A DNA stretch of 64,000 bases from Vicinamibacterales bacterium (GTDB taxonomy: Bacteria > Acidobacteriota > Vicinamibacteria > Vicinamibacterales > 2-12-FULL-66-21). Shown here in pieces: positions 2,558 to 45,473 of the stretch; within the stretch, counting starts at the first letter, position 1; every line of letters starts with the position of its first letter. The notes under the pieces were generated by a model. The model saw only the letters and a list, made by a program, of their open reading frames with translations. It was not told where the DNA came from and did not search any database. The DNA lies in NCBI GenBank assembly GCA_035699745.1, contig DASSPH010000005.1, positions 1 to 64,000 on the forward strand. Reading direction: 5' to 3'. The translations under genes and the position numbers were made by a program.

Positions 2558-3834
2558 AGAACGAGACCCTGACCCCGCTGACTCCGTTGAACAACGACGG
2601 GCAGGTGATCTTGTTGCTGTGTTCGACGCTGGCGCTGCCGCGATCGTCTGGCGGAGTGAAGCCGCTGTCAGGGCGAGAATGGAACGAGCTGGCCCGCGGG
2701 ATCAGCACCTCGCATTTCAGGCGGCCCGGCGCCTTGCTGGGCGCGGCGGCCGACGATATTCGTCGAGAATTGCGGCTCGACGCCAGCCTCGCCGAGCGTA
2801 TCGGGAAGCTCCTCGAGCGCGGCGGCCAGGTTGCCATCGAACGCTCCCGCCTCGAGGACCTCGGCATCTGGGTGCTGACCAGGGTCGATGCGAACTACCC
2901 GCCCCGGCTCAAGGAACGGCTGAGGGGACAGGCCCCTCCAGTGCTGTTTGGAGCGGGCCCTCAGCCAGCAATGAATGACACGGGGTTGGCCGTCGTCGGC
3001 TCGCGCGACGTGGACGACGCTGGAGCGGCGTTCGCGGCACTCCTCGGCGAACGATGCGCCGCCGAGGGGCTGGTGGTCTTTTCCGGCGGCGCGCGCGGCG
3101 TCGATCAACTCGCGGTCAAGGGATGCCTCGATCACGGGGGAGCAGGTGTCGCAGTGCTGGCCGACAGCCTCGAGCAGACTCTGAAGCGACGGGAGGTCGG
3201 CCGAAGTGTTCTCGAGTCTCGTCTGACGCTGATCACGCCGCTGCATCCCTCGACGCGATTCACCGTGGCGGGCGCAATGGGCCGGAACAAGCTCATTTAT
3301 GCGCTGGCGTCGTGGGCCGCCGTCGTATCCGCCGGCCTCGACAGCGGCGGCACATGGGCAGGCGCCATCGAGAATCTCCGCGCCGGGTGGGTACCGCTGT
3401 TCGTGCGCGCGGGCGAGAGCGTTCCGCCAGGCAACCGCGAACTGATAAACCGAGGCGGCATTCCGCTCGGAACCGCGGACGTCACTGAAGGCTTGCGCAC
3501 CTGGATCGAGCAACACGACATCGCTCGATCACGCCGCAGTGACCTGGCACTGATCCGGGAGGATTCGCCGACCTACCGGGCGCCATCGCGCCGCGCGGAA
3601 TCCACGGAAGCCGCTGACGTGTTCCCGATGGTCTGGCCGAGCATCGCTGCGTATCTGTCCACTCCCAGAAGCGAGACTGAAGTCGCGACCGCGTTCTCAC
3701 TGGAGCCGTCGCAGGTCAACGCCTGGCTGACGCGGGCGGTGCGCGAAGGCCTGGCCGAGCGGACGACGGACCCGGTGAAGTACAGCATCCCCGCGGCATC
3801 GCGGCAGGATCAGGAGCCGACTCTCTTCGACTGA
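2554..3834 (+). CDS. DprA/Smf-family DNA-processing protein
   Basis: 426 residues from the GTG at 2554, which overlaps the helicase stop (GTGA) and sits behind GGGAG at 2542-2546. The open frame extends further upstream inside the helicase gene, but that part is not DprA-like. The Rossmann core shows LGIWVLTRVDANYPPRLKE, VVGSRD (about residue 147) and FSGGARGVDQLAVKG (about 175-190), the GARGID-type signature of DprA. The C-terminus carries a winged-helix-like segment (about residues 350-410, YLSTPRSETEVATAF...). DprA proteins bind single-stranded DNA and load RecA during transformation. A copy coupled to a RecQ-PRTase is more likely a specialised paralogue, such as the DprA-like partner of a PRTase toxin, than the housekeeping gene. 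No competence genes are nearby. Confidence 0.92.
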   Translation: MKNETLTPLTPLNNDGQVILLLCSTLALPRSSGGVKPLSGREWNELARGISTSHFRRPGALLGAAADDIRRELRLDASLAERIGKLLERGGQVAIERSRLEDLGIWVLTRVDANYPPRLKERLRGQAPPVLFGAGPQPAMNDTGLAVVGSRDVDDAGAAFAALLGERCAAEGLVVFSGGARGVDQLAVKGCLDHGGAGVAVLADSLEQTLKRREVGRSVLESRLTLITPLHPSTRFTVAGAMGRNKLIYALASWAAVVSAGLDSGGTWAGAIENLRAGWVPLFVRAGESVPPGNRELINRGGIPLGTADVTEGLRTWIEQHDIARSRRSDLALIREDSPTYRAPSRRAESTEAADVFPMVWPSIAAYLSTPRSETEVATAFSLEPSQVNAWLTRAVREGLAERTTDPVKYSIPAASRQDQEPTLFD

Positions 3835-3876: not shown

Positions 3877-4896
3877 ATGGACGCCACCTACATCGACTTC
3901 GAAGCACTGCAGACTGAACCCGGCAGCCCGGCGCTCCTGGGAATCCTCGCTGTCGAAGGCGGCAAGGACCACTTCGAACAGGTCATTGTCGACTCTCGCC
4001 TGGCGCCCGGACGCGTGGCATCCAGCCACGTACGCGCGGCGACACTGGCGGACACGGTGAGGCACCTGCTCGCGGGTGGCCGACCGCTGGTGAGTTGGAG
4101 CATCTTCGACCGCGACGTGGTGGAGCAGTCGGATCTCGACGCCTCGTTGAAAGCCGAATGGCGTGCTCGGCACGTGAACGCGTTGACCACCGCGCGGAGA
4201 TGGCGCACCAAAGTGCATCCCGGCTTCAAGATCACGAAGGCCGACAGGCGCGCCGCCAAACACACGCTGGATCAGTACGCGGAGCTGGCCGGATACCGGC
4301 AGGTCGCGAAGTTGCGTGGCGGTGAGCCGGCGCGGTGGATCAAGCATCTGCGGGAGCAGCTGGCATCACGCACGCACTATCGCCGCGTGACGAAGCTGAC
4401 GAAGCGCCATTGGCATGCGCTGCTCGACTACAACCGTCACGACCTGTCCGCGCTCAGGCACGTCTACGAGCGCGCCACGTTCGAGCTGCAGAAGTGGCGG
4501 GAATACGAGAACACCGACTACTTCGTCTTCGAGCCGGAAGGGCAACCCATTCGCTTCCGGGTCGGAGGTCGCAAGCCGAGACTCGATGCCTTGCTCGCGC
4601 GTTACGGAGCGACGCGATGGGCCTTCATGACCGCCTGGAACCCAGCGTCCCGGGAGCTGGCTGCGGCGACAAATGACTCTCGGCAGGACGAGATGCTCAC
4701 CGAGCTGACCGCCAGAGGCTACCGTTGTCTCCGCGGCGAAGGCCGTGGGGCAGATCCGTCGTGGCCCGCCGAGGAAAGCGTTCTGGTCCTCGACATACCA
4801 CCTGCGATGGCCCGTACGATTGGCCGGCGCTTCGGTCAGCTCGCCATCGTCACCGGTCGCCGCGGCGCTTCGTCGAAACTCGTTGCTTGCTTGTGA
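3877..4896 (+). CDS. Predicted DEDD/RNase H-fold nuclease fused to DUF3293
   Basis: 339 residues from ATG 3877; an in-frame TTG at 3862 would add five residues. The N-terminal half opens with YIDFEAL (a DxE motif I), has WSIFDRDVV near residue 75 and YNRHDLSALRHVYERA near 185-200. This spacing matches DEDD-type 3'-5' exonuclease or YprB-like RNase H folds; catalytic assignment is inference. From about residue 245 the sequence is DUF3293: AFMTAWNPASREL, an N and R at conserved spots, then GADPSWPAEESVLVLDIP and FGQLAIVTG. It begins 42 bp after the DprA stop on the same strand, so it probably forms the third gene of the cassette. A nuclease with a helicase-PRTase and DprA suggests processing of foreign or damaged DNA. 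Confidence 0.75.
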   Translation: MDATYIDFEALQTEPGSPALLGILAVEGGKDHFEQVIVDSRLAPGRVASSHVRAATLADTVRHLLAGGRPLVSWSIFDRDVVEQSDLDASLKAEWRARHVNALTTARRWRTKVHPGFKITKADRRAAKHTLDQYAELAGYRQVAKLRGGEPARWIKHLREQLASRTHYRRVTKLTKRHWHALLDYNRHDLSALRHVYERATFELQKWREYENTDYFVFEPEGQPIRFRVGGRKPRLDALLARYGATRWAFMTAWNPASRELAAATNDSRQDEMLTELTARGYRCLRGEGRGADPSWPAEESVLVLDIPPAMARTIGRRFGQLAIVTGRRGASSKLVACL

Positions 4897-5220
4897 GCGG
4901 TGAGTCTCGACATTGTCCCTGCGCTTGGACATCCGCCGTCCACCGCAGACGACAGCAAGGCGCTCTGCACCGGCGCGTGCCCGTGCACTCAGCTGGCACA
5001 ATCTCTGCTACGCTCGCAGCAACCCAGGCAGCCCGCGTTCAGGCTGCCGGCATGAAGAAGACGGCGAGAGCCCCGGCTCGACGACCCGTCGCCACACCGT
5101 AATCCGGCGCGGAACTCCCCGCGCACACGGTGGCCCAGCCGGCCGGCATCCCCGGATGTCCGGAACCATGCGCGATTCGAACGCAGCTCCTCGCGGAGCA
5201 TCGTCGAAAGGATGCTGAAG
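4897..5220 (+). other. Intergenic stretch without a supportable gene
   Basis: About 320 bp between the nuclease gene and the next clear start. Short open frames occur on both strands but lack a ribosome binding site and recognisable sequence, and no strong hairpin with a T tract was seen. A promoter for the downstream pair may lie here, but no convincing -35/-10 pair could be picked out in this GC-rich DNA. Confidence 0.5.
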
Positions 5221-5883
5221 ATGGACATCGTCAATCTGTACGCGCCCATCGAGCGTGCGCTGCTGTCCGCGTACCTCGGCGTTCCCGACCCGAAACCCGC
5301 GGACATTGCCGGGGTCGACGTCACGAAGCCGGTGCCAGACGACTGGAACGAGACCCGGAACGGCACCGGTCCACGCGCGAGTGAACGTGGCAGCAATGCC
5401 CTGATGCTCGAGAACGCGGTCGCGCGTATCTGCCTCGAGTCCGCGCAACGCAGCCTGCCGCAATGGGCGGTGGTCCGCGACGGCACCGTCACACTGGGGC
5501 GGCGCCGACAGCGCACGGCTCGGCGTGAGCGCAAGCTGCGACCGATCCATCTGTTCACGATCAACTGGGGCGATTCCGGCCCAGGCTTCAGCTGGCCGGA
5601 GGCGTATTACGCGACGTGGCTGCCGGGATACGACGTCTCCGTCGTGACCGCATCCGCGGACTCGCCGGACACGCATGGCTACTCCGACTTTGCGATCGGG
5701 TGGTTTCGCGGTCCGGCAGATGCCCATGGTCGTGCGGCGGAGTGCGTCGCCGACCACTGGATCGTGCAGAAGGGCTACTGCCAAGAACGTTGGGCGTACC
5801 TGCTCGACGCGGGCGCGCTCGATGAACGAGCCGCGAACGCCCTCGCCGATGCGGTATGGCCCTCGAATGGAGAGGACCAGTGA
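5221..5883 (+). CDS. Hypothetical protein, 220 aa
   Basis: I do not recognise a family. ATG 5221 is chosen because AAAGGA at 5207-5212 sits 8 nt upstream; an ATG at 5212 would add three residues but overlaps that site. The protein is soluble, with no signal peptide or membrane segment. It is mixed in composition: an acidic-neutral start (MDIVNLYAPIERALLSAYLG), a basic stretch RRRQRTARRERKLR near residue 100, then an aromatic-rich region with HLFTINWGDSGPGFSWPEAY. It overlaps the next gene by 4 bp, so the two form an operon, and they follow the RecQ-PRTase cassette on the same strand. A link to that cassette is possible but not shown. Confidence 0.7.
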   Translation: MDIVNLYAPIERALLSAYLGVPDPKPADIAGVDVTKPVPDDWNETRNGTGPRASERGSNALMLENAVARICLESAQRSLPQWAVVRDGTVTLGRRRQRTARRERKLRPIHLFTINWGDSGPGFSWPEAYYATWLPGYDVSVVTASADSPDTHGYSDFAIGWFRGPADAHGRAAECVADHWIVQKGYCQERWAYLLDAGALDERAANALADAVWPSNGEDQ

Positions 5884-36027: not shown

Positions 36028-38748
36028 CTACAGCTTCCACGCAACCCGGCCGTAAATCGTGCGCCCGTTCATGCCGAACGGTGAGTGGCTGGGAAACGTC
36101 TGAATGCCGTTGAACGAATTCACGGTGATGTTGCGATCCGGGAAGATGTTGAACAGGTTCTGCGCCCCCACGGCGAGCGTCAGCTCGCGGCCGATGCGAT
36201 ACGACGCTTCCAGATCGGTGAGCCACTTCGGGCTGTAGGTCTGATCGTCGGCCGGACGGGCGGTGAAGCTGCAGAACTCGCCGAACCGCGAGAACATGGC
36301 GTTCACCCCCCACCGATCGAGGCGCCAGTCGGCGTTGGCGCGGACGCTGTCGCGCGGCTGGCCGCACTCGATCCGCCGCCGCTCGATGCGATCGAACAGC
36401 ACCTGATCGAAGCCGGCGAGCTGCGGCGGCGTGGCGACGCTGCCGACGATCTCCGTCCTGGTGTGATTGAAGCCCCCCTGCAGCCGCAGCGCCCCCGCGG
36501 TCCCCAGCGCCACGCGATACGCCGCCGTGAGGTCGACGCCGTTGGTGCGGGTGTCGATCGCATTGGTGAAGAAGCGCCCGCTGTTGGCGCCGAACGGCGC
36601 CAGCAGCGCGTCGATCCGCGGGTCGTTGGTGAAATTGCCGGAAAGGACGATGCGGTCGTCGATCGCGACGCGATAGAAGTCGAGCGTGATGTCGAGTCCG
36701 GGGATCGGCGAGACCACGGCGCCGCCGCTGACGTGCGTGGACTGCTCCGGCTTGAGGTCCGCCGCGCCGAGCGCACGCGCCGGTGCGGAGGTCACCGGCA
36801 GGGTCAGCGATTCGACCGGCACCAGCCCCTGTCCGAGATTGACGAAGTTGGTCGCGGTGGACGAGAAGAACGACTGGCCGAGCGACGGCGCGCGGAAGCC
36901 GCTGCTCACGCTGCCGCGGACGACGAAGCGGCGATCGATCTCGAGGCGCGCGCTGACCTTGCCGTCGACGGTGCCGCCGAAGTCGCTGTAATGCTCGGTG
37001 CGTCCGGCGAATCCCAGCCGCAGCCGGTTGACGACCTCCCCTTCGACGTCGACGTAGGCCGCCTGGCTGTGCCGTGATTCGTTCACTTCGTTCGACGGAC
37101 GGAAGCCCGGGAACACCTGCGCGCCGATCGCGGCGATGCCGCCGGCGCGGTTGCGCACGCCGCCGTTGTTGTAGGAATTGGGCTCGCCGGCCTCGATTTC
37201 ATACTGCTCGCGGCGCACTTCGGCGCCGAACGCGACGTTGAGCGGGCCGGCGAGGCTGCCCACCTTGAATCCGCGGCTGATGTCGACGTTGCCGACCACC
37301 TGTCCGAGCCGCAGCGTGCCGGCATCGAACTCGGTCTGGTTCGGCGGGATCGCCGGCCCGAGCGACACGTTCAGCGAGTTGCCGATGGTGAACTCGAAGC
37401 TGTTGCGCCCGAACGACCCGCTGGCATCCCACGCCCAGTTGTTCCACGCGCCGCGCACCCCTCCGGCGACCGACGCGTCGATCACCGTCGGCCGGATCTC
37501 CGGCAGGAAGCCGAGCGGATAGATCTGCGGCCAGTTGCGGACGTCGTTGGCCCGGCGATAGAAGCCGGCGCTGTTGGCCTCGCGGCGGCTGAACCCGCCG
37601 AACGCGTAGAAGAACCGCGTCTGCCGCCCGTTGAGCGGCACCTGGGCGTTGACGAACGTCATCGTGTCGCGGGTGTCCGGATCCCCCCAGCGATGGTTCG
37701 GCTGGGGCACGCTGTTGTTGCCGGCGTCGCCGGCGACCACCTGGTCGCGCGGATCGAACGACGCGCGGTTGGTGCGATTGTGCCGGCGGTACTCCGCCGC
37801 GATCGTCAGGCTGCCCTGGCCGAGGCGCAGCCCCCACGATCCGCCGGCGTCGAACAGCTCGCCGTCCGAGAAGTCGATGGTCGATCCCTCCTGACAGCTG
37901 GTCCCGCCCGCGTTGCAGCTGTTGCCGACGAAGCTGCCCGTCGACAGCCCGAACTTGCTCGTGACTTCAGGCGCCGATACCCCGCCCTTGAGGACGATGT
38001 TGATCACGCCGGCGATCGCGTCCGACCCGTACTGCGCCGCGGCGCCGTCGCGCAGCACTTCGATCCGCTCGATCGCCGACACCGGAATGGCGTTGAGATC
38101 GACACCCGTCGATCCCCGCCCGATGCTGCCGTTCAGGTGCACCAGCGCGCTCTGATGGCGCCGCTTGCCGTTCACCAGCACCAGCACCTGATCGGGACCG
38201 AGGCCGCGCAGCGTCGCCGGGCGGACGGTATCGGTGCCGTCGGTGATCGTCGGCCTCGGGAAGTTGAAGGACGGCGCGATCGCCTGGATCACCTGCGCGG
38301 TTTCCGCATACCCGGTGGACGCGATCTGCTCGGAGGTGATCACGTCGACGGGCACCGCCTTGTGCGCCTCGGCGCCGATCACGCGCGAGCCGACGGTGAT
38401 CGATTCCTCGAACCCGAGACTCAACGCCACGTCCTGCGTCGTCGCCGCCGCCGCCGTGTTCAGCGTGACGTCGATGATCCGCGACGGCAGGCCGAGCGCG
38501 TCAATCTTGATCTGCACCTTGCCGGCGCGGACGAACGCGGGCGGCAGCTCGATCGTGTAGCGGCCGTCGTTGCCGGTGGTGACGGTGACATCGGAGCCGA
38601 CCAGGGCCACCGCCGCGCCCGGCACGGGCAGTCCGTCCGCTTTCGTGGTCACGACGCCGGTGATCGTGGACGGGGCCTGCGCGGCGGCAGTGCCGCCGAT
38701 CGCGGCAAAGAGAACGAGCATCGTGAGAAAACGGCCGGCAGTGCGCAT
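36028..38748 (-). CDS. TonB-dependent outer-membrane receptor with N-terminal carboxypeptidase-regulatory-like domain
   Basis: 906 residues. AGGAGG lies directly before two ATGs (38751 and 38748); the second has the better spacing. After a signal peptide (RFLTMLVLFAAIGGTAAAQ) comes a CarboxypepD-regulatory-like beta sandwich (about 27-105, ITGVVTTKADGLPVPGAAV). The plug follows (about 125-235) with VIQAIAPSFNFPRP, VRPATLRGLGPDQVLVLVNG and IERIEVLRDGAAAQYGSDAIAGVINIVLK. The rest is a 22-strand-type barrel ending in YGRVAWKL. It imports an unknown ligand using TonB energy. No TonB, ExbB or substrate-binding genes adjoin it. Confidence 0.93.
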   Translation of the reverse strand: MRTAGRFLTMLVLFAAIGGTAAAQAPSTITGVVTTKADGLPVPGAAVALVGSDVTVTTGNDGRYTIELPPAFVRAGKVQIKIDALGLPSRIIDVTLNTAAAATTQDVALSLGFEESITVGSRVIGAEAHKAVPVDVITSEQIASTGYAETAQVIQAIAPSFNFPRPTITDGTDTVRPATLRGLGPDQVLVLVNGKRRHQSALVHLNGSIGRGSTGVDLNAIPVSAIERIEVLRDGAAAQYGSDAIAGVINIVLKGGVSAPEVTSKFGLSTGSFVGNSCNAGGTSCQEGSTIDFSDGELFDAGGSWGLRLGQGSLTIAAEYRRHNRTNRASFDPRDQVVAGDAGNNSVPQPNHRWGDPDTRDTMTFVNAQVPLNGRQTRFFYAFGGFSRREANSAGFYRRANDVRNWPQIYPLGFLPEIRPTVIDASVAGGVRGAWNNWAWDASGSFGRNSFEFTIGNSLNVSLGPAIPPNQTEFDAGTLRLGQVVGNVDISRGFKVGSLAGPLNVAFGAEVRREQYEIEAGEPNSYNNGGVRNRAGGIAAIGAQVFPGFRPSNEVNESRHSQAAYVDVEGEVVNRLRLGFAGRTEHYSDFGGTVDGKVSARLEIDRRFVVRGSVSSGFRAPSLGQSFFSSTATNFVNLGQGLVPVESLTLPVTSAPARALGAADLKPEQSTHVSGGAVVSPIPGLDITLDFYRVAIDDRIVLSGNFTNDPRIDALLAPFGANSGRFFTNAIDTRTNGVDLTAAYRVALGTAGALRLQGGFNHTRTEIVGSVATPPQLAGFDQVLFDRIERRRIECGQPRDSVRANADWRLDRWGVNAMFSRFGEFCSFTARPADDQTYSPKWLTDLEASYRIGRELTLAVGAQNLFNIFPDRNITVNSFNGIQTFPSHSPFGMNGRTIYGRVAWKL

Positions 38749-38809
38749 CATGCCTCCTGGACGGGTGTCCGACGATCCTAATCCACAACGGTTGCGACAT
38801 AATGCGGCC

Positions 38810-39334
38810 ATGAAAACACTCATCACCGCCACGCTGATGGCCGTCACGCTCGCCGCGGCGCAGCCGCCCCAGGTCACCAGACCGACCGTGACCGGCGTCA
38901 CCAACTTCGCCAGGCTCGATTCCACGATCGCGTGCGCCGGCGCGACGACGCTCGACGGCATCCAGGAAGTCGCCAAGCTCGGCTATAAGTCGATCATCAA
39001 CCTGCGTGAGGCGTCGGAAGCCGGCGCCCAGGTGCAGGAATCGGCCGCGGCGGCGCGCGGCGCCGGGATCAAGTACGTCCACATCCCGATGAACCGCAAC
39101 ACGCCGGACCCGGCGGTCGCCGACCGCTTCCTCGAGGCGATCGTCGATCCGCAGGCGCAGCCCGTGTTCGTCCACTGCGGCAGCGGCAATCGCGCCGCGG
39201 CGATGTGGATGATCAAGCGCATGGTCGTGGACAAGTGGGACGCCGAGAAGGCCGGCACCGAAGCGGCGGCGCTCGGGTTGACCAACGCGCAGCTCAAACA
39301 GTTCGCGATCGATTACGCCGCGAAGAAGAAATGA
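38810..39334 (+). CDS. Secreted DUF442 / BLH-type phosphatase-like protein
   Basis: 174 residues. A short signal peptide (KTLITATLMAVTLAAAQ) is followed by VTNFARLDSTIACAGATT, LGYKSIINLREASEAG and VFVHCGSGNRAAAMW with C123. The family (DUF442, related to dual-specificity phosphatases) is usually cytosolic and uses a Cys loop with an Arg. The loop here is C-x4-R, one residue shorter than the classic C-x5-R, as in DUF442 relatives. Export is unusual for this fold. Divergent from the TonB receptor across about 60 bp. Confidence 0.82.
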   Translation: MKTLITATLMAVTLAAAQPPQVTRPTVTGVTNFARLDSTIACAGATTLDGIQEVAKLGYKSIINLREASEAGAQVQESAAAARGAGIKYVHIPMNRNTPDPAVADRFLEAIVDPQAQPVFVHCGSGNRAAAMWMIKRMVVDKWDAEKAGTEAAALGLTNAQLKQFAIDYAAKKK

Positions 39335-39335
39335 G

Positions 39336-40355
39336 CTAGCCGCCGGTTCGCGACGAGGCCTCCGCCGCCAGCAGGTAGCGGTGCCAGCGATCGCGATCGG
39401 ACGAGACCTGGAGCGGGTTCAGCGCCAGGAGCCCGGTGCGCCCGATCGACGCCTGCAGCGAGCGCAGCTCCTGCAGGCTGGCGTGCAGATCGGGCGTGAC
39501 CGGGATCGCCAGTCCCGCGTCGCGCGCCAGCAGCATCGCCTTGGCCTGCACCGCCAGCTCCAGCTCGAGCCGCAGCAGGCAGAACATGTCCGCGACCACG
39601 ATCCCGCCGAACCGCGCCCGCAGCTCCTGGAGATACGCGCCGAAGCGCGTGGCCGCGAACAGCTCGGACTTGATCAGATCGAGCAGCTCGATGTCGAGAT
39701 CGAGGCCCGCACCCACCCACTCGCGCGTGGCGCGCTCGCTGCGCTGAAACGCGGCAATCATCAGCCACGGCATCACCATCAGCACCAGCAGCGTCAGCGC
39801 CAGCGGCGGCAGCGGCAGGTGATTGAACGCGGCATGGATGCCGATCACCAGGGCGAGACCCGGCGCCGCGGCGATCCACAGCCGCCGTTCGCCGCGGTCC
39901 ATCATCGTCTTCACGCCGATGGCGAACAGCGCCGTCAGCGTGCCGTGCAGGGTCGCCGTGCCCAGGCCCCGCGCGAACCACAGCAGCAGCGGCGCGTTCG
40001 CGAGATGCGACAGGTAGTCGATGTTCTCGACGATGGCGAAGCCGGTGCCGACGGCGAAACCATGGACGGCCCCGTCGACGAGGAAGCCGATCCGCCGGCG
40101 CCACAACAGCATGATGACGACGAGCCCCTTCAACGTCTCCTCGGTCAGCGGCGCGACGTAGCGGGTCAGCGTCGTCAGACGCATGCCGGTGGCGTCGAGC
40201 AGCCAGTCGTGCAGCGGCAGGCAGAACAGGGCGACGAGCGCCCCGGCGGCGATCGTCGCGAGCACCGCGGTCAGCCGCACCAGCTTGAACGTGTCCATGA
40301 GCTGCAGCAGCGCGAGCAGGATCAGCACCGGGACGATGGCGAGCGCGACGTTCAT
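39336..40355 (-). CDS. PrsW-family glutamic intramembrane protease (locus B)
   Basis: 339 residues; ATG 40355 overlaps the stop of the upstream gene (ATGA). Seven or so membrane helices fill residues 1-225. Family motifs are visible: TEETLKG (E72, E73), GFAIVENIDY (E110), H137 in TLHGTL, and GIHAAFNH. A soluble C-terminal helical domain of about 110 residues follows (from SERATREWVGAGLDLD). PrsW of Bacillus subtilis makes the first cut in the anti-sigma factor RsiW. Here the gene closes an operon that starts with an ECF sigma factor and a membrane protein in the anti-sigma position, so the same job is likely. Confidence 0.9.
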   Translation of the reverse strand: MNVALAIVPVLILLALLQLMDTFKLVRLTAVLATIAAGALVALFCLPLHDWLLDATGMRLTTLTRYVAPLTEETLKGLVVIMLLWRRRIGFLVDGAVHGFAVGTGFAIVENIDYLSHLANAPLLLWFARGLGTATLHGTLTALFAIGVKTMMDRGERRLWIAAAPGLALVIGIHAAFNHLPLPPLALTLLVLMVMPWLMIAAFQRSERATREWVGAGLDLDIELLDLIKSELFAATRFGAYLQELRARFGGIVVADMFCLLRLELELAVQAKAMLLARDAGLAIPVTPDLHASLQELRSLQASIGRTGLLALNPLQVSSDRDRWHRYLLAAEASSRTGG

Positions 40356-43348
40356 CGCAGGATCTTGAAGGAGAGCATCAGCTCGCCGGCGGGACGCCGG
40401 CCGTCCGCGATCGCGACGGCGCCGCCGAACGACAGCGTCATGTCCTGGTTGGAGAGCACCGTCAGCCGCAGATCGACCTGGCCGCCGATGCTGGCCACGC
40501 GCCGTCCCGCGGCGCGCTCGTCGAGGTTGGTCGCCAGGCCGGTGGCGAACACCGCCGGGCGGAGCCACGTCGCGTGCAGGCCGGGCGTGCCCAGACGGCG
40601 GAACCGCCATGGCGGCAGGTTCCATTCGACGCTCGCCTTGGCGAAGTTGCGCGCCGGGATCTCGTTCAGCTCGACGCCCGGCAGGCTCTCGACGTGGCGG
40701 TAGCGCTTCTCGTCGCCGCGGTCGACGTAGTTGTTGCCGAAGCCGCCGAAGTAGAAGTTGGCGAACGGGTCGTCGCGATCGCGCGGCGAGAATCCGCCGG
40801 CCGTGCGCAGCCAGATCGACGAGTGGCCGAGCGGCAGGCCGCGGCCGCGGTCGAACGTGCCGTGCAGCCGCGGAAAGAGCGTCCCATTGACGACGTCGCC
40901 GCGCAGCTCGAGCGACCACTTGCGCCCGGTCTCTTCGTCGACGTAGCCGAGCGAGTTGCGGACGTCGGTGAAGGTGAGCGCCGATCGCAGCGTCACCAGC
41001 CGGTCGACGTCGACGGCCACGTTCTGGAACTCGGGCAGCCGATCGAGGTTGCCGGACACCGCGGCGCTGACATCGAGGTCGAGCCGGCGCGGCTCGTCGA
41101 AGACGAGCGCGCTGCGGCGGCCGGCGAGGAACCGGTATCCCTTGCGTCCGACCTTCGTCGGTCCGAAGAGATCGTAGAAGTCGGCGCGATTCCACGACGC
41201 GCTCGCGCGCCAGTCGTAGCGCTCGTAGTCCGCGGAGAGGTGGACGCGCTCGCCGGCGGAGACGTTCGCGGCCGGCGAGACGGACGCGGTCAGGCGCAGG
41301 CGGTTGAACATCAGCGGGTCCGACAGGTTGAGCGCCACGCCGCCGGCGGCGGTGTCCTTGTAACCCTGCACGATCGGATAGAACGACTCGCGCTGGAGAC
41401 CGCCGCCCAGCCGGTAGGTGCCGGTGCGCTTCTCGATCGTGTCATACGGCACGGCGGCGGGGGACCCGAGCATCCACGTCTTCAGCACCGGCCGCTCCTC
41501 GATGAGACGCTCGCCGAGGAACGTGATCGGGCTGACGTCCTCGAGCGGCTTCGGATCGATCCGCGCCGGCACGAATCCCTGTCCGGTATAGCGGAACACG
41601 ATCAGCCCGCCGTCAGGCAGCGGCACCGGACGGAAGAACCCCGAGTCGGTGTTGCTGACGGCATCCAGCTTCTTCGTCGCCAGATCGAACCGGAAGATGT
41701 TGGAGACGCCGGTGTAGTACGAGCTGCCGAACAGGTAGCGGGCGTCCGGCGAGAACACGAAGCCGTTCGGCGTCGCGGTGCCGAAGTCGAAGCGCGCCAC
41801 CGGCGCGGTCTCGCCGCCGAGCAGCGCCGCGATGTCCAGCACCCGGACGTCCTGCTTCCCCGAGATTTCCCCGAACGATCCGGAGATCCGCGAGCCATCG
41901 GGCGAGATGTCGATGTCGTACATCGACGTCCCGTACGGCCAGGTGATGATGCGCTCCCAGTCGGCGTACGGCGGCTTCATGCGCACCAGCGTCGACAGGC
42001 CGTTGAGGTGCCGGATGCCCCAGATCGATCGATCCGCGGCGTTGTAGGCGAGGTCGCCGATACGGGCATCCTTCTGGAGGACGCGGGTGCGCCGCGTCGC
42101 CGGATCGAGCTGCACGAGATCGCGGTGCGATCCGTTGTCGGTCGTGTAGTAGATCCGGCGATCCGACGGATTCCACACCAGCGACGTCACCGTGTAGATC
42201 AACGGCCCCTTGATGTCGACCAGGCGCTCGAGCGTGCCGGCCGCCGTGGCGATGCGCGAGACGTGCGCGACGGCGCCGGGATAGTTGAGCCCCGCATAGA
42301 GGGACGCGGTGGCCGCATCGAAGTAGGCGCGCGACACCGAGCCGAGCGGGCGCGACGTGATGTCGCGAAACGGCGTCAGCGGATACTGCCGCACCTGCGC
42401 CAGGTTCTGCTGCTGGAACGCATGCTCGTCCGCCACCCACGCCTGCCACGCGGACTCGAGCGAGACGCCGAACACCTTCCGGAACTGCGAGGCGTAGTAG
42501 CCGCGGCTGCCGGGCCCGCGCGACACCCACTCGATCAGCTTCTCCGGCGTATGGCGGCGCGCCAGCCAGGTCATGAACCGCGTGCCGTAGAGATACGAAT
42601 TCACCTGCGTCTGGAAGTCGATCTTGGTCCCTTCCGACAGCAGCCCGAGCGGGTCGTAGAACTGGACGTTGTCGCGCACCATCGCGCGGAACACCATCTC
42701 GTCGTAGCCGCCCTGCGCGCGGCCGAGGCCGCCGGCCATCCAGGTGTCGACGAAGACGGCAATTCCCTCGTGGTACCAGCGCGGCGCGGCGACGCGCGGC
42801 GTGGTCAGATACCAGTAGAGCAGCGACTCCGGGTGCTCGGCGAGCGGCAGCACCTTGCCGCCGAACAGCCGCCGGAACGTCCGATCGGCCCCGGCCGCCT
42901 GATCCATCGTCAGGATGTGGACCAGTTCGTGGTTGGTCAGCGTCGACATCCGCTCGTTGGCCGCCATCGTCTCGAAGGCGAAGTTGAGCGGCGCAATCTG
43001 GACCGAGATCACGTTCCGCGGCACCACGCCGGCGGCGGCGTTGCCGGCGTCCGCGAGATCGACGAGCAGCATCGTCATCCGCTCGCGCGAGTCGAAGCCG
43101 AACAGCCGCCGTTCGAACGCCAGCGCGTTCAGGAACACGCGCGCCGCGTGGGGCACCAGGTACGACTCGGTGCCATCGAAATAGACGATGCGGACTTCGG
43201 GGATTTCGACGGTGGTGAGCTGCGCGCGGACGGACCGGCTGCAGGCGAGCAGGACCGTGACGGTCAGGACGATCCGAACGAGGGCCCGGCGGACCATGCG
43301 AGGGGCAGCGTACAGCACGAGCCGGCCGCACGGGGCGGCCGGCTGCAT
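40352..43348 (-). CDS. Outer-membrane HExxH peptidase with propeller and beta-barrel (locus B)
   Basis: 998 residues from ATG 43348, preferred because GGAGG lies 8 nt upstream; ATG 43297 lacks a site. After a signal-like helix (about 19-42) the N-terminal domain has HELVH (140-144) and a downstream glutamate E194 in WYHEGIAVF, the gluzincin pattern of MA-type peptidases. Residues 330-620 form a propeller (WNPSDRRIYYTTD, SPDGSRISGSFG, SPDARYLFGSSY). The last 350 are beta-barrel-like (VHLSADYERYDWRASASWNR, ... ELMLSFKIL). It resembles large acidobacterial outer-membrane 'peptidase-barrel' proteins. It sits 18 bp behind the repeat-protein gene and overlaps the PrsW gene. Confidence 0.88.
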   Translation of the reverse strand: MQPAAPCGRLVLYAAPRMVRRALVRIVLTVTVLLACSRSVRAQLTTVEIPEVRIVYFDGTESYLVPHAARVFLNALAFERRLFGFDSRERMTMLLVDLADAGNAAAGVVPRNVISVQIAPLNFAFETMAANERMSTLTNHELVHILTMDQAAGADRTFRRLFGGKVLPLAEHPESLLYWYLTTPRVAAPRWYHEGIAVFVDTWMAGGLGRAQGGYDEMVFRAMVRDNVQFYDPLGLLSEGTKIDFQTQVNSYLYGTRFMTWLARRHTPEKLIEWVSRGPGSRGYYASQFRKVFGVSLESAWQAWVADEHAFQQQNLAQVRQYPLTPFRDITSRPLGSVSRAYFDAATASLYAGLNYPGAVAHVSRIATAAGTLERLVDIKGPLIYTVTSLVWNPSDRRIYYTTDNGSHRDLVQLDPATRRTRVLQKDARIGDLAYNAADRSIWGIRHLNGLSTLVRMKPPYADWERIITWPYGTSMYDIDISPDGSRISGSFGEISGKQDVRVLDIAALLGGETAPVARFDFGTATPNGFVFSPDARYLFGSSYYTGVSNIFRFDLATKKLDAVSNTDSGFFRPVPLPDGGLIVFRYTGQGFVPARIDPKPLEDVSPITFLGERLIEERPVLKTWMLGSPAAVPYDTIEKRTGTYRLGGGLQRESFYPIVQGYKDTAAGGVALNLSDPLMFNRLRLTASVSPAANVSAGERVHLSADYERYDWRASASWNRADFYDLFGPTKVGRKGYRFLAGRRSALVFDEPRRLDLDVSAAVSGNLDRLPEFQNVAVDVDRLVTLRSALTFTDVRNSLGYVDEETGRKWSLELRGDVVNGTLFPRLHGTFDRGRGLPLGHSSIWLRTAGGFSPRDRDDPFANFYFGGFGNNYVDRGDEKRYRHVESLPGVELNEIPARNFAKASVEWNLPPWRFRRLGTPGLHATWLRPAVFATGLATNLDERAAGRRVASIGGQVDLRLTVLSNQDMTLSFGGAVAIADGRRPAGELMLSFKILR

Positions 43349-43366
43349 GCTGTCGTCCTCCGGGCG

Positions 43367-44482
43367 TTACCGCGCGACGGCCAGGGCTCTGGCGCCGAGG
43401 GCGTCGACGAAGGCGCGGCTGGAGAGCGCGTCGGCGAACGCCTGGGTCCGCATCGCTTCGGCGATGGCGGCGTTCTCCATGGCCCGGCCCAGCGCGCCGC
43501 GGCCGATGGCGTCGGCGATGGCGCTGCTCTCGAGCGCCTGGGCGATGGCGCCGGATTCGATGGCCCGCGCCAGCGCGGCCTGATCGAGGGCCCGCGCCAG
43601 CAGACCGCTCTCGGCGGCGCGTCCGAGCGCGCCGCTCTCGAGCGCGCGCAGCACTGCGTCGTAGCGGAGCGCTTCGGCCATGGCGCCGGTCTTCAGCGCC
43701 TCGGCGAACGCCTCCACCTTGAGCGCCCGCACGAGCGCCTCGTTCTCGCGCGCCAGGCGGACGGCTTCGCGGCTGCCGGCGGCGTAGTTCTTCGCGACCA
43801 GCTCGACGACCCGCGCGTTCCTCAGCGCCTCGAGCACCTGCGCGCTGGCGAGCGCTTCCCGCACCTGGGCGTTCATCAGCGCCTCGCGAACGTGCGCGTT
43901 CGCCAGGGCCTCGCGCGTCTGGGCATTGGCCAGCACTTCACGCATCCGCGCGTTGCGGAGCGCTTCGCGCATCTGCGCGTTCATGAGCGCTTCGCGGACC
44001 TGCGCGTTGCGGAGGGCGTCACGAACCTGCGCGTTCGCCAGCGCATCGCGCACCGCGGCGTCGGCCATCAGCGACCGCGCTTCGGGGTCCTTCATCAGGC
44101 GCGCCACGACGTCGCTCTGAAGGACCTCCTGAATGGACGCGTCGCCGAGCTTCACGTCCGACGCGGTCAACTGCTGCGCCTGCTGGCGCTTGGCGGCGCC
44201 GATCGCCCCTTCGGTGCCCCTGTCGACCAGCGGCCAGCCGGTGGTGGTGAAAACAGCGATGAACACCGCGGCGGCCGCGGATAGCCCGATTAACACCTTT
44301 TTCGCCATGAACGTGTCCTTTCCTCCGTAAGATGCACGTGTGCGGCCTGCCCGCACGGAAGCCATCACGTCCCGCACCAGGTTCGGAGGCGGCGGGTCGC
44401 CGTCGTCGAGTTCGTCCAGCAGCGCGTTCACGCGATCCATCGCCGGACTGCGGAACGGCTCGTCGCGTTCAGTTCGATCCAT
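43367..44482 (-). CDS. Membrane protein in anti-sigma position, built of nonapeptide repeats (locus B)
   Basis: 371 residues. ATG 44482 overlaps the sigma stop by one base (TGATG). A 58-residue cytosolic start (NALLDELDDGDPPPPNLVRD) has no zinc motif. One membrane helix follows (about 59-82, KVLIGLSAAAAVFIAVFTT). The outer part is nearly all nine-residue repeats: first block AQVREALMN-type (10 units), second block GAIAQALES-type (about 12 units). An internal ATG at 44308 (MAKKVLIG) has its own GGAGGAAAGGA and could give a short form lacking the cytosolic part. Position between an ECF sigma and two proteases argues for an anti-sigma factor whose outer repeats sense or bind something. No known family name is claimed. 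Confidence 0.8.
   Translation of the reverse strand: MDRTERDEPFRSPAMDRVNALLDELDDGDPPPPNLVRDVMASVRAGRTRASYGGKDTFMAKKVLIGLSAAAAVFIAVFTTTGWPLVDRGTEGAIGAAKRQQAQQLTASDVKLGDASIQEVLQSDVVARLMKDPEARSLMADAAVRDALANAQVRDALRNAQVREALMNAQMREALRNARMREVLANAQTREALANAHVREALMNAQVREALASAQVLEALRNARVVELVAKNYAAGSREAVRLARENEALVRALKVEAFAEALKTGAMAEALRYDAVLRALESGALGRAAESGLLARALDQAALARAIESGAIAQALESSAIADAIGRGALGRAMENAAIAEAMRTQAFADALSSRAFVDALGARALAVAR
43370..44062 (-). repeat. 27-bp coding repeats encoding nonapeptides
   Basis: Two blocks of in-frame 27-bp units. Block 1 (about 43788-44062) encodes [AS][QRH][VMT][RL][ED][AV]L[RMA]N, 10 copies, very uniform. Block 2 (about 43370-43725) encodes [GAS]A[ILM][AGL][RQED]A[LIM]xx, about 12 copies, more divergent. 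The shared A and L positions suggest both arose from one unit by duplication. Confidence 0.85.
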
Positions 44483-45024
44483 CAGCTCATCTCTCCCAGC
44501 AGCATTTCCGCGAGCCGCTGACGCGCCGAATAGAGCCGCGACTTCACGACCTTGGCGGGAATCTCGAGCGTCGCCGCGATGTCGTCGTACGAAAGGTCGG
44601 CGAAATGCCGCAGCACGATCACCTGCCGGTATTCGTCGGTGAGTGCCAGTAACGCTTTCTGCACGCGCTGCCTCCGCTCGCTCCGCTCCAGCGCGTCGAG
44701 CGGCGTCCCGTTTCCCGCCAGCTCGAACGCCGCTTCCTCCTGCTCGTGCCGCCGCCGCCCGCGCCGCGCGTTCAGGCATTCGTTCAGCAGAATCCGATAC
44801 ATCCAGCTGAAGAACCGGAACCGCGGGTCGAAACTCCGGAGGTTCTGGAACGCCTTCACGAAGGCCGCCTGGGTGGCGTCGCTCGCGTCCGCGGGGTCGC
44901 CCAGCATCCGCAGCGCCACCTTGAACAGCACCCGCTGATGGCGGGTCACCAGCACCTCGAACGCCTCGACGTCGCCCGCCACCGCCCGCTGCGCCAGCGC
45001 TCCGTCGTCGTCAGGGTTCTGCAT
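44482..45024 (-). CDS. ECF sigma factor (locus B)
   Basis: 180 residues from ATG 45024 (MQNPDDDGALAQRAVAGDVE). An ATG at 45096 would add 24 residues unlike any sigma factor. Region 2: FEVLVTRHQRVLFKVALRML, DASDATQAAFVKAFQNL and FRFFSWMYRILLNECLNARR. Region 4: ALLALTDEYRQVIVLRHFAD, LSYDDIAATLEIPAKVVKSRLYSARQRL. This is a standard ECF factor. It heads a four-gene operon with the repeat membrane protein, the HExxH barrel protein and PrsW. It is divergent from a STAS gene, with 77 bp between the two starts that should hold both promoters. Confidence 0.95.
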   Translation of the reverse strand: MQNPDDDGALAQRAVAGDVEAFEVLVTRHQRVLFKVALRMLGDPADASDATQAAFVKAFQNLRSFDPRFRFFSWMYRILLNECLNARRGRRRHEQEEAAFELAGNGTPLDALERSERRQRVQKALLALTDEYRQVIVLRHFADLSYDDIAATLEIPAKVVKSRLYSARQRLAEMLLGEMS

Positions 45025-45101
45025 TGAAATACACTCGCCGTTACGAAAAGTTGGCGCCGTGGGGCGGGCTGAGTCTATAGCGGGACCAACGGTCAAACTC
45101 G

Positions 45102-45473
45102 ATGAAATCGGTATGGCGGCTCGAAATCGACCGGGAGATTCAGGACGGCGTCCTGGTCCTGCGGCTGGGCGGCAGGCTCGGCACGGCCTCGTCCGGCGCG
45201 CTGATAGACGCGGTAATTCAAGGACTCGCCGAGGGTTATCGCGCCGTCATGCTCGATCTGCAGGAGATCGACTACATGAGCAGCGCCGGGCTGATGGCTG
45301 TCGACGCGTCGGCAGGGCGCGCGCGGAGCCAGGGGGGCGCACTGGTGCTCTGCGCCGCCTGCGACGCGGTGCGGCTGGTGCTGGAGTTCGGCGGGCTGCT
45401 GGCCGACGTCCCGCTGGAGCCGTCCCGCGCCGCCGGACTCGAGCGCCTGCGCCGGGAAAGCGGCCCTGAATAG
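45102..45473 (+). CDS. STAS-domain anti-anti-sigma-like protein next to locus B
   Basis: 123 residues. STAS core: DGVLVLRLGGRLGTASSGAL, AVMLDLQEIDYMSSAGLMAV (S60/S61 at the switch serine) and LVLCAACDAVRLVLEFGG. It is cytosolic. Known STAS antagonists release sigma factors from anti-sigma kinases. No such kinase is seen here, so its partner may be one of the other kinases of the cell. It shares its upstream region with the ECF sigma gene. Confidence 0.9.
   Translation: MKSVWRLEIDREIQDGVLVLRLGGRLGTASSGALIDAVIQGLAEGYRAVMLDLQEIDYMSSAGLMAVDASAGRARSQGGALVLCAACDAVRLVLEFGGLLADVPLEPSRAAGLERLRRESGPE

Follow-up and report, generated by a model that had tools for sequence, protein, structure and literature searches.

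A stretch of 64,000 nucleotides from a Vicinamibacterales bacterium of the Acidobacteriota (contig DASSPH010000005.1, positions 1 to 64,000; here called the window) encodes on its reverse strand an extracytoplasmic function (ECF) sigma factor, a repeat membrane protein, an HExxH peptidase-like protein and a PrsW-family protease. These four genes are part of a larger conserved locus, and we think it rather probable that this locus specifies a self-amplifying ECF sigma circuit on the RsiW/PrsW pattern, with an input from a STAS protein. An anti-sigma domain, in this case fused to the membrane-anchored repeat protein, would keep the sigma factor at the inner membrane. PrsW would cut the fusion first, in or close to the membrane; the second cut, which frees the sigma factor, would be made by an M50 protease whose gene lies elsewhere in the genome. 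The freed sigma factor would transcribe chiefly its own operon, so that the output would be the repeat protein, which an internal start would also yield on its own, together with the exported peptidase. The periplasmic partner of the peptidase would probably be a juxtamembrane box in the repeat protein, and a STAS-based partner switch would serve as a cytosolic input, most likely acting on the cytosolic C-terminal domain of PrsW. Binding, cleavage, the signal, the order of events, the size of the regulon and gating by STAS are the parts that we infer; among all the steps, the anti-sigma nature of the N-termini in relatives has the most support and the target of the STAS switch the least.

The genes, their order and their conservation are read directly from the sequence, as are the RsiW homology of the relatives, the fused and split forms, the internal start signal and the promoter-like motif. 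The sequence-only reading of this DNA had placed the four genes in one operon and the coordinates confirm this. The sigma factor gene (180 aa, 44482-45024) has a stop codon that is overlapped by the ATG of the repeat membrane protein (371 aa, 43367-44482), the gene for the HExxH protein (998 aa, 40352-43348) starts 18 nucleotides after the repeat gene, and PrsW (339 aa, 39336-40355) follows with an ATGA overlap. Divergent from the sigma factor gene, on the forward strand, is a gene for an RsbV-like STAS protein with an SSAGL motif (45102-45473; PF01740, 55 bits against a cut-off of 22.6). The sigma factor matches Sigma70_r2 (PF04542, 62.7 bits), Sigma70_r4_2 (PF08281, 50.8 bits) and TIGR02937, each over the cut-off; it has the ECF architecture of regions 2 and 4, with no region 3 model among 7 Pfam matches.

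PrsW proteins of the window type are patchily distributed. They were found at E <= 1e-3 in 15 of 162 genomes of the order, 11 of these below 1e-70, and at E 1e-30 in 24 of 396 genomes at the level of the phylum. Peptidase matches at E < 1e-60 occur in 11 genomes of the order, all 11 of which also have a repeat-protein match; at 1e-3 the peptidase matches 46 and the repeat protein 13 of 161 genomes. In two genomes with PrsW, G018 and G053, the peptidase has no strong match. A scan of contigs beyond the phylum returned 19 loci, 11 with full-length PrsW relatives and 8 with short, weak ones. The labels of the relatives from other phyla, which are metagenome bin labels, are Balneolia, Balneolaceae, Balneolales, Rhodothermaceae, Burkholderiales, Proteobacteria, Krumholzibacteriia or only bacterium.

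We assembled 42 PrsW loci, comprising the 22 of the PrsW alignment (window included) and 20 more from the phylum of the window. The peptidase gene is present in 36 of these, in 34 of them adjacent and on the same strand; in L161 and L162 it lies across a divergent PrsW. It is absent from L025, L026, L027, L044, L045 and L169, of which L026 has only about 150 nucleotides visible upstream. Neighbours were counted in the 22 loci with at least 3 kb upstream, leaving out contigs that end sooner. An ECF sigma factor is present in 18 of these (that of L172 is 27% identical), STAS in 20, an RsbW-like HATPase in 13 and a SpoIIE phosphatase in 10; an earlier tblastn search marked HATPase in L161 and L162 too, outside the count of 13. 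The SpoIIE, HATPase, STAS, sigma factor, anti-sigma with repeat, peptidase and PrsW genes are collinear in L024, L158 and L167. Conservation of the gene order, a check proposed by the sequence-only reading, thus extends to other families of the order and to other phyla; these counts are not independent, because they include the close relatives L019/L020, L021/L024 and L176/L177. In G018 and G019 the sigma and anti-sigma genes are on a different contig (L105 and L101, respectively). In L176 and L177 the sigma factor and a separate anti-sigma are downstream of PrsW, which is partial or in two frames or pieces. The peptidase of L040 is also in two frames, and like the split PrsW of L176/L177 this is perhaps due to sequencing errors.

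The match of the relatives' N-termini to RsiW is the strongest evidence for an anti-sigma role. A profile of N-termini from 10 homologous fusions finds RsiW at E = 1.2e-10, the next matches being an uncharacterised protein (0.0044), BAG1 and RseA (0.03) and 3hug_B (0.089), and a profile of 6 separate anti-sigmas finds RsiW at E 8.2e-8. The fusion reading frame that follows the sigma factor gene runs from a cytosolic N-terminus through a single membrane helix into an ectodomain. In the window the N-terminus (44309-44482, 58 aa) is a putative shortened anti-sigma domain that keeps a PPxxLxxxVMAxV segment, RsiW-like by eye (EAPADFTANVMAKL), and contains no Cys or His that could be a ligand of the zinc anti-sigma (ZAS) type. 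The transmembrane helix, predicted from the hydropathy of the homologues, spans residues 61-83 (44234-44302; KKVLIGLSAAAAVFIAVFTTTGW). We compared 23 sigma loci, the 18 of the 22 above and L101-L105. The anti-sigma domain is fused to the repeat protein in 16 and is a separate membrane protein in 6 (L045, L158, L166, L167, L176 and L177, all but L045 with a separate repeat protein); one locus (L172) has neither form and none has both. The repeat protein is a separate gene in L158, L159, L165, L166, L167, L172, L175, L176 and L177. We regard the window protein as a fusion because in the split lineages L158, L166, L167, L176 and L177 one gene encodes an RsiW-like anti-sigma and another the repeat protein. 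The sequence-only reading had taken the repeat protein for the anti-sigma factor; the relatives' N-termini support this for the N-terminal domain, the repeat region not being the anti-sigma as such.

In 15 of 15 fusions tested the gene has a start codon (14 ATG and 1 GTG) directly ahead of the membrane helix, at the point from which separate repeat proteins are translated. In the window this is an ATG at 44308, from which a putative second product of 313 aa (43367-44308), with the membrane anchor, box and repeats, could be translated; a Shine-Dalgarno-like GGAGG/AAGGA is at 44316-44326. Shine-Dalgarno-like matches of at least 4 bases, 3-12 nucleotides upstream, precede 15 of 15 internal starts and 157 of 1023 control codons, matches of at least 5 bases precede 10 of 15 and 36 of 1023, and matches of at least 6 precede 3 of 15 and 2 of 1023. 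As internal start we took, by eye, the codon preceding the helix; the controls were in-frame ATG and GTG codons within the same and neighbouring genes, with TTG codons left out. L105 was outside this test, no Met being seen before its helix. The second product would thus be the repeat protein alone. Inside the fusion genes of L171 and L102, some 50-75 nucleotides before the internal start, are a near-match to the promoter-like motif described next and, in L102 (3409-3434, reverse strand; about 60 nucleotides before the start), a second copy of the motif, with one extra spacer base; both positions would suit a promoter that serves the short product separately.

The promoter-like motif CCAACTT-N13-GTGTA (45030-45054, reverse strand) ends 5 nucleotides upstream of the sigma ATG. 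It recurs with exact sequence and spacing upstream of the sigma or anti-sigma gene of this operon in 10 loci. It precedes the sigma factor in the window, L039, L103, L104 and L024, as well as in short contigs of G005 and G007, and it precedes the anti-sigma in L101, L018, L019, L020 and L022. Three more loci have an altered form, L041 with a changed -10-like part and L102 and L105 with one extra spacer base; L045 is masked at this position. In 161 genomes of the order there are 18 exact matches. Seven are at this operon, which puts the motif there in 7 of the 11 peptidase-bearing genomes; the remaining 11 matches resemble background, and the reversed pattern, used as a control, gives about 29 (counted from the table). 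Five genomes from other phyla contain the exact motif 1, 1, 2, 1 and 1 times, one each at the operon, against 0, 3, 0, 0 and 0 for the control; no gene was seen reading from the second match in G518. In the lineages that have it we read the motif as the probable promoter of the sigma factor's own operon. A search for a large regulon found none: with one mismatch allowed, the motif gives 8 matches in the window genome (1 exact and 7 others) and the reversed pattern 11. The window genome showed no second clear site, though it may hold weaker promoters. Only a few bases separate the sigma start codon from the GTGTA element in the window (45024-45054) and in L108, L116-L120 and L131; the messages may be leaderless, or the element may have another use. 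The sigma reading frame of G002, G005 and G006 (L116-L118) runs through the GTG of this element, with no ATG directly after it.

The membrane helix of the repeat protein is followed by a juxtamembrane box (GAIGAAKRQQAQQLTASDV, 44153-44209). The pattern G-(T/A)-(I/M/V)...(R/K)(Y/H/F/Q/K)...Q...D(V/I/A) is present in 22 of 25 repeat proteins from 24 loci, the same proteins from which it was written; L103, L104 and L171 have variants of it. It is found in none of 7 anti-sigma or transmembrane proteins from split or peptidase-less loci, L105 keeping part of it; a looser pattern also touches L105 and the anti-sigma of L158. The box is kept although the repeats differ between proteins, and it may be a docking site or a cutting site.

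The rest of the ectodomain (43367-44152) consists of 9-residue repeats. Lags of 9, 18 and 27 score 2.03, 1.73 and 1.47 against a median of -0.63, and the gene contains a 27-bp tandem array at 43809-44054. The repeats are of 9 residues in most of the proteins, of 8 in L024 and of 18 in L172 and in the first of two repeat proteins (L166:2084-3163 and 4428-5279) that flank the separate anti-sigma of L166; this first protein has repeats of the GEAGxKxMVPVDSGKLI type. Repeats are weak in the second L166 protein, and none are clear in L158, L159 and L167. Proteins of more than 900 residues occur in L161 (4871-7666) and L162 (4663-7782). In L023 a repeat-like open reading frame (417-2342, SPVWEQPEGLEILEK type) is upstream of the peptidase gene, and no helix or box was found for it in that contig. 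No Pfam family matches the window repeat protein over the cut-off. Among eight proteins searched STI1/HOP_DP exceeds its cut-off in L161 only (73.7 bits against 29.1); it is below the cut-off in L018 and L019 and gives no match in the other five. The window protein matches it at E 0.0033, also below the cut-off. An AlphaFold2 model consisting entirely of short helices was not used, because its predicted local distance difference test (pLDDT) score is 47. BLAST matches among the repeat regions were not accepted as homology, because low-complexity repeats match one another; G082 is probably such a case.

PrsW of the window matches PF13367 with 76.9 bits (cut-off 23.5), and 22 of 22 homologues match this family at E <= 0.1. 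It scores 39.3 bits against the PrsW equivalog NF033739, well below the cut-off of 225, so it belongs to the same family and differs from the equivalog. In the membrane core E72, E73, K76, E110, N111, H137, H174 and N178 are invariant in 22 of 22 proteins, and we take the invariant acidic and His residues to be the catalytic motifs. Merging of hydrophobic stretches gives seven helices in this protein, and most PrsW proteins have eight according to PMC3482391. The last helix is followed by a soluble conserved domain (about residues 205-339), which is probably cytosolic because basic residues cluster in the loops on the side of the C-terminus. Pfam gave no family common to the members for this domain, and the PrsW profile found no solved structure at E <= 1. 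The sequence-only reading had made PrsW the protease of the anti-sigma; this seems likely, since the N-termini of the relatives match RsiW, the known PrsW substrate in the account of PMC5358783, and cleavage of the window protein would follow by analogy. A gene for an M50 protease is present in the window genome (E = 2e-70). Converging on PrsW is a gene for a DSP/BLH-type phosphatase-like protein (38642-39334, forward strand; PF04273, 50.4 bits, and PF22741, 48.2).

The STAS protein is commonly associated with partner-switch proteins. The full set of STAS, kinase and PP2C phosphatase is present in L024, L045, L158, L167, L169, L172, L176 and L177, and also in the PrsW-less contigs L102 and L103. 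It is possible, with a probability that we place clearly below that of the circuit as a whole, that this module acts directly on the sigma factor, as RsbW does on sigma-B, so that the sigma factor has two independent anti-sigma inputs. The collinear SpoIIE-HATPase-STAS-sigma genes of L024, L158 and L167 fit this explanation, as does classical partner switching as treated in the review PMC4598750, which deals with PrsW and partner switching in separate sections. However, STAS stays beside PrsW in loci where no sigma factor is seen (L025 and L027, with 2.0-2.6 kb visible upstream, L044 and L169), which argues for PrsW as the target, as in the circuit that we favour. In L175 STAS is present without a sigma factor, and L159 has neither. 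L169 also encodes, between STAS and PrsW, a membrane protein of 166 aa (2864-3364) without an anti-sigma domain, whose ectodomain by eye resembles those of the separate anti-sigmas. Several HATPase_c_2 genes occur elsewhere in the window genome, and on another contig (G000:C74; L182, L184 and L186) three such matches are close together. This cluster is a possible source of the kinase that is missing beside the window STAS gene.

The 998-aa protein is probably exported, judging by a signal-like N-terminus seen by eye. It has a predicted peptidase-like domain (residues 62-320 approximately), a TolB-like propeller (about 337-600) and barrel-like strands (about 650-996). H140, E141 and H144 of the HExxH motif and the downstream E194 are invariant in 15 of 15 homologues, the arrangement of a gluzincin-like peptidase. 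The predicted model (pLDDT 60, predicted template modelling score 0.50) contains a helical domain and a propeller, as well as long strands in succession. In a fold search the propeller matches TolB (4pwz, Z 21.4, root mean square deviation 2.9, 241 residues), with unrelated propellers among the rows within 1 of it. Neither a barrel nor a metallopeptidase is among the best 50 rows of either fold search; these rows are mainly propellers and hardly extend past that domain, and this excludes nothing. Pfam gives only weak propeller matches for the window protein itself; among the 15 homologues at E <= 0.1 it finds PD40 in 9, Omp85_2 (PF19143) in 7 and Peptidase_MA_2 (PF13485) in one, at 0.0059. The best PF19143 match of a homologue is 4.8e-4, and the window protein is not among the PF19143 matches. 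An outer-membrane location is likely because of the modelled strands, the propeller and the PD40 and Omp85_2 matches of the homologues.

The sequence-only reading had made this barrel peptidase the sensor or first signal. In such a model an envelope signal at the outer membrane would lead it to cut or pull the repeat ectodomain and so license PrsW. The peptidase and the box, strict or variant, co-occur wherever the N-terminus of the neighbouring repeat protein is readable, the HExxH residues are invariant, and the fusions link the ectodomain to the anti-sigma domain. Nevertheless PrsW, sigma factor and anti-sigma occur without the peptidase or a strict box in L045 and in G018 (L044/L105), the repeat-like reading frame that precedes the peptidase in L023 has no box that we could find, and the motif points to the peptidase as a product of the circuit. 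We consider a sensor role unlikely as the whole explanation; the barrel peptidase could equally be an output of the circuit.

Another explanation is that the PrsW substrate is the repeat protein itself, which would be processed or released, and that the anti-sigma fusion couples regulation to this in some lineages only. Repeat proteins without an anti-sigma domain are near PrsW in L159, L165, L172 and L175, and PrsW domains have also been proposed, in PMC3482391, to process exported toxins. On the other hand L045 has PrsW and an RsiW-like anti-sigma with no repeat protein, and L025 and L027 have PrsW and STAS with no sigma factor or peptidase in the 2.0-2.6 kb seen upstream. We find this explanation as doubtful as a sensor role for the peptidase. 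Chance adjacency of the genes is rejected, as the same set turns up in other families and in bins from other phyla; because the cluster recurs in such distantly related bacteria it looks like a real signalling system.

Several observations weigh against the RsiW/PrsW-type circuit that we propose. The group to which the window belongs (window, L039, L101, L102, L104 and L105) keeps only the last part of the RsiW domain, without the first part, and a profile of this group matches no anti-sigma factor; it meets the longer N-terminal profile over 26 columns only, with a probability score of 72.5. For the window protein itself the anti-sigma assignment is accordingly weaker than for its relatives. 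L159, L169 and L175 have PrsW without a nearby sigma factor, and the window has a STAS gene with no kinase or phosphatase beside it. The box tracks the peptidase rather than the anti-sigma and therefore need not be the PrsW site. In the window genome the exact motif occurs once and so does the reversed pattern, so that only its place marks the motif match. Elsewhere in the phylum, one (L166) of 12 loci with enough upstream sequence carries the exact motif, and L171 a near form. Within the order of the window the sigma start codons are only a few bases after the motif, which is odd for an ordinary promoter and would need leaderless or nearly leaderless messages. On balance the anti-sigma and PrsW assignments of the sequence-only reading still appear likely; it had missed the STAS, kinase and phosphatase genes, the fusion, the internal start and the promoter-like motif.

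PrsW proteases are widespread, and we know of no established trigger for their activation outside a few Bacillota. A PrsW subfamily with an extra, apparently cytosolic domain and a STAS association over several phyla offers a hypothesis for cytosolic gating of an intramembrane protease. The locus would also link a sigma switch of RsiW type with a peptidase that is likely in the outer membrane, and it is a likely case of a single gene giving both an anti-sigma fusion and a separate ectodomain. With the candidate promoter at hand, reconstruction of the system in a laboratory strain should be easy. In its most specific form the proposal would be that a SpoIIE/RsbW-like/STAS switch gates PrsW via the cytosolic C-terminal domain, that the sigma factor serves one operon, and that one gene yields both an anti-sigma-repeat-rod fusion and the rod alone, which is paired via the box with an outer-membrane peptidase barrel. 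That all of these hold together is improbable, and we offer this version as speculation.

Outer-membrane proteins that signal to a membrane anti-sigma and an ECF sigma factor are known from the FecA-FecR-FecI system. The general idea of that route is shared here, whereas the four window proteins have no TonB-receptor or STN match in Pfam. The RsbU-RsbV-RsbW system shares a SpoIIE phosphatase, STAS and a HATPase_c_2 kinase, which are near each other in several loci; here, in contrast, they are beside an ECF sigma factor with its own membrane anti-sigma and an intramembrane protease, and the window keeps only STAS. The short anti-sigma N-terminus may be compared, by description, with that of CnrY in the CnrY/CnrH system of Cupriavidus metallidurans. 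To our knowledge there is no PrsW in that system. The two-helix N-terminus of CnrY can bind its sigma factor; PMC5358783 likens the helices to alpha3 and alpha4 of RsiW, while PMC7406223 compares them with helices 1 and 4 of class I domains.

The known kind to which the locus belongs is the SigW-RsiW-PrsW system. The comparison rests on the regulated intramembrane proteolysis of Bacillus subtilis SigW-RsiW-PrsW-RasP as described in PMC3498285, PMC5358783 and PMC10202637. Shared with it are the ECF sigma factor, a single-span anti-sigma of RsiW type (in the relatives), a PrsW-family protease and an M50 protease. Here, however, PrsW is in the same operon and has an extra conserved C-terminal domain, the anti-sigma carries a fused repeat ectodomain that has an internal start of its own, in the window genome the promoter-like motif is seen at its own operon only, and the window N-terminus is without Cys or His. 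The locus also has a probably exported propeller/barrel peptidase and a STAS partner switch. Literature word searches, which can miss loci without names, found no description of this locus; to that extent the operon with a probably exported peptidase, the fusion with an internal start, the added PrsW domain and the association with STAS are new to this kind of system.

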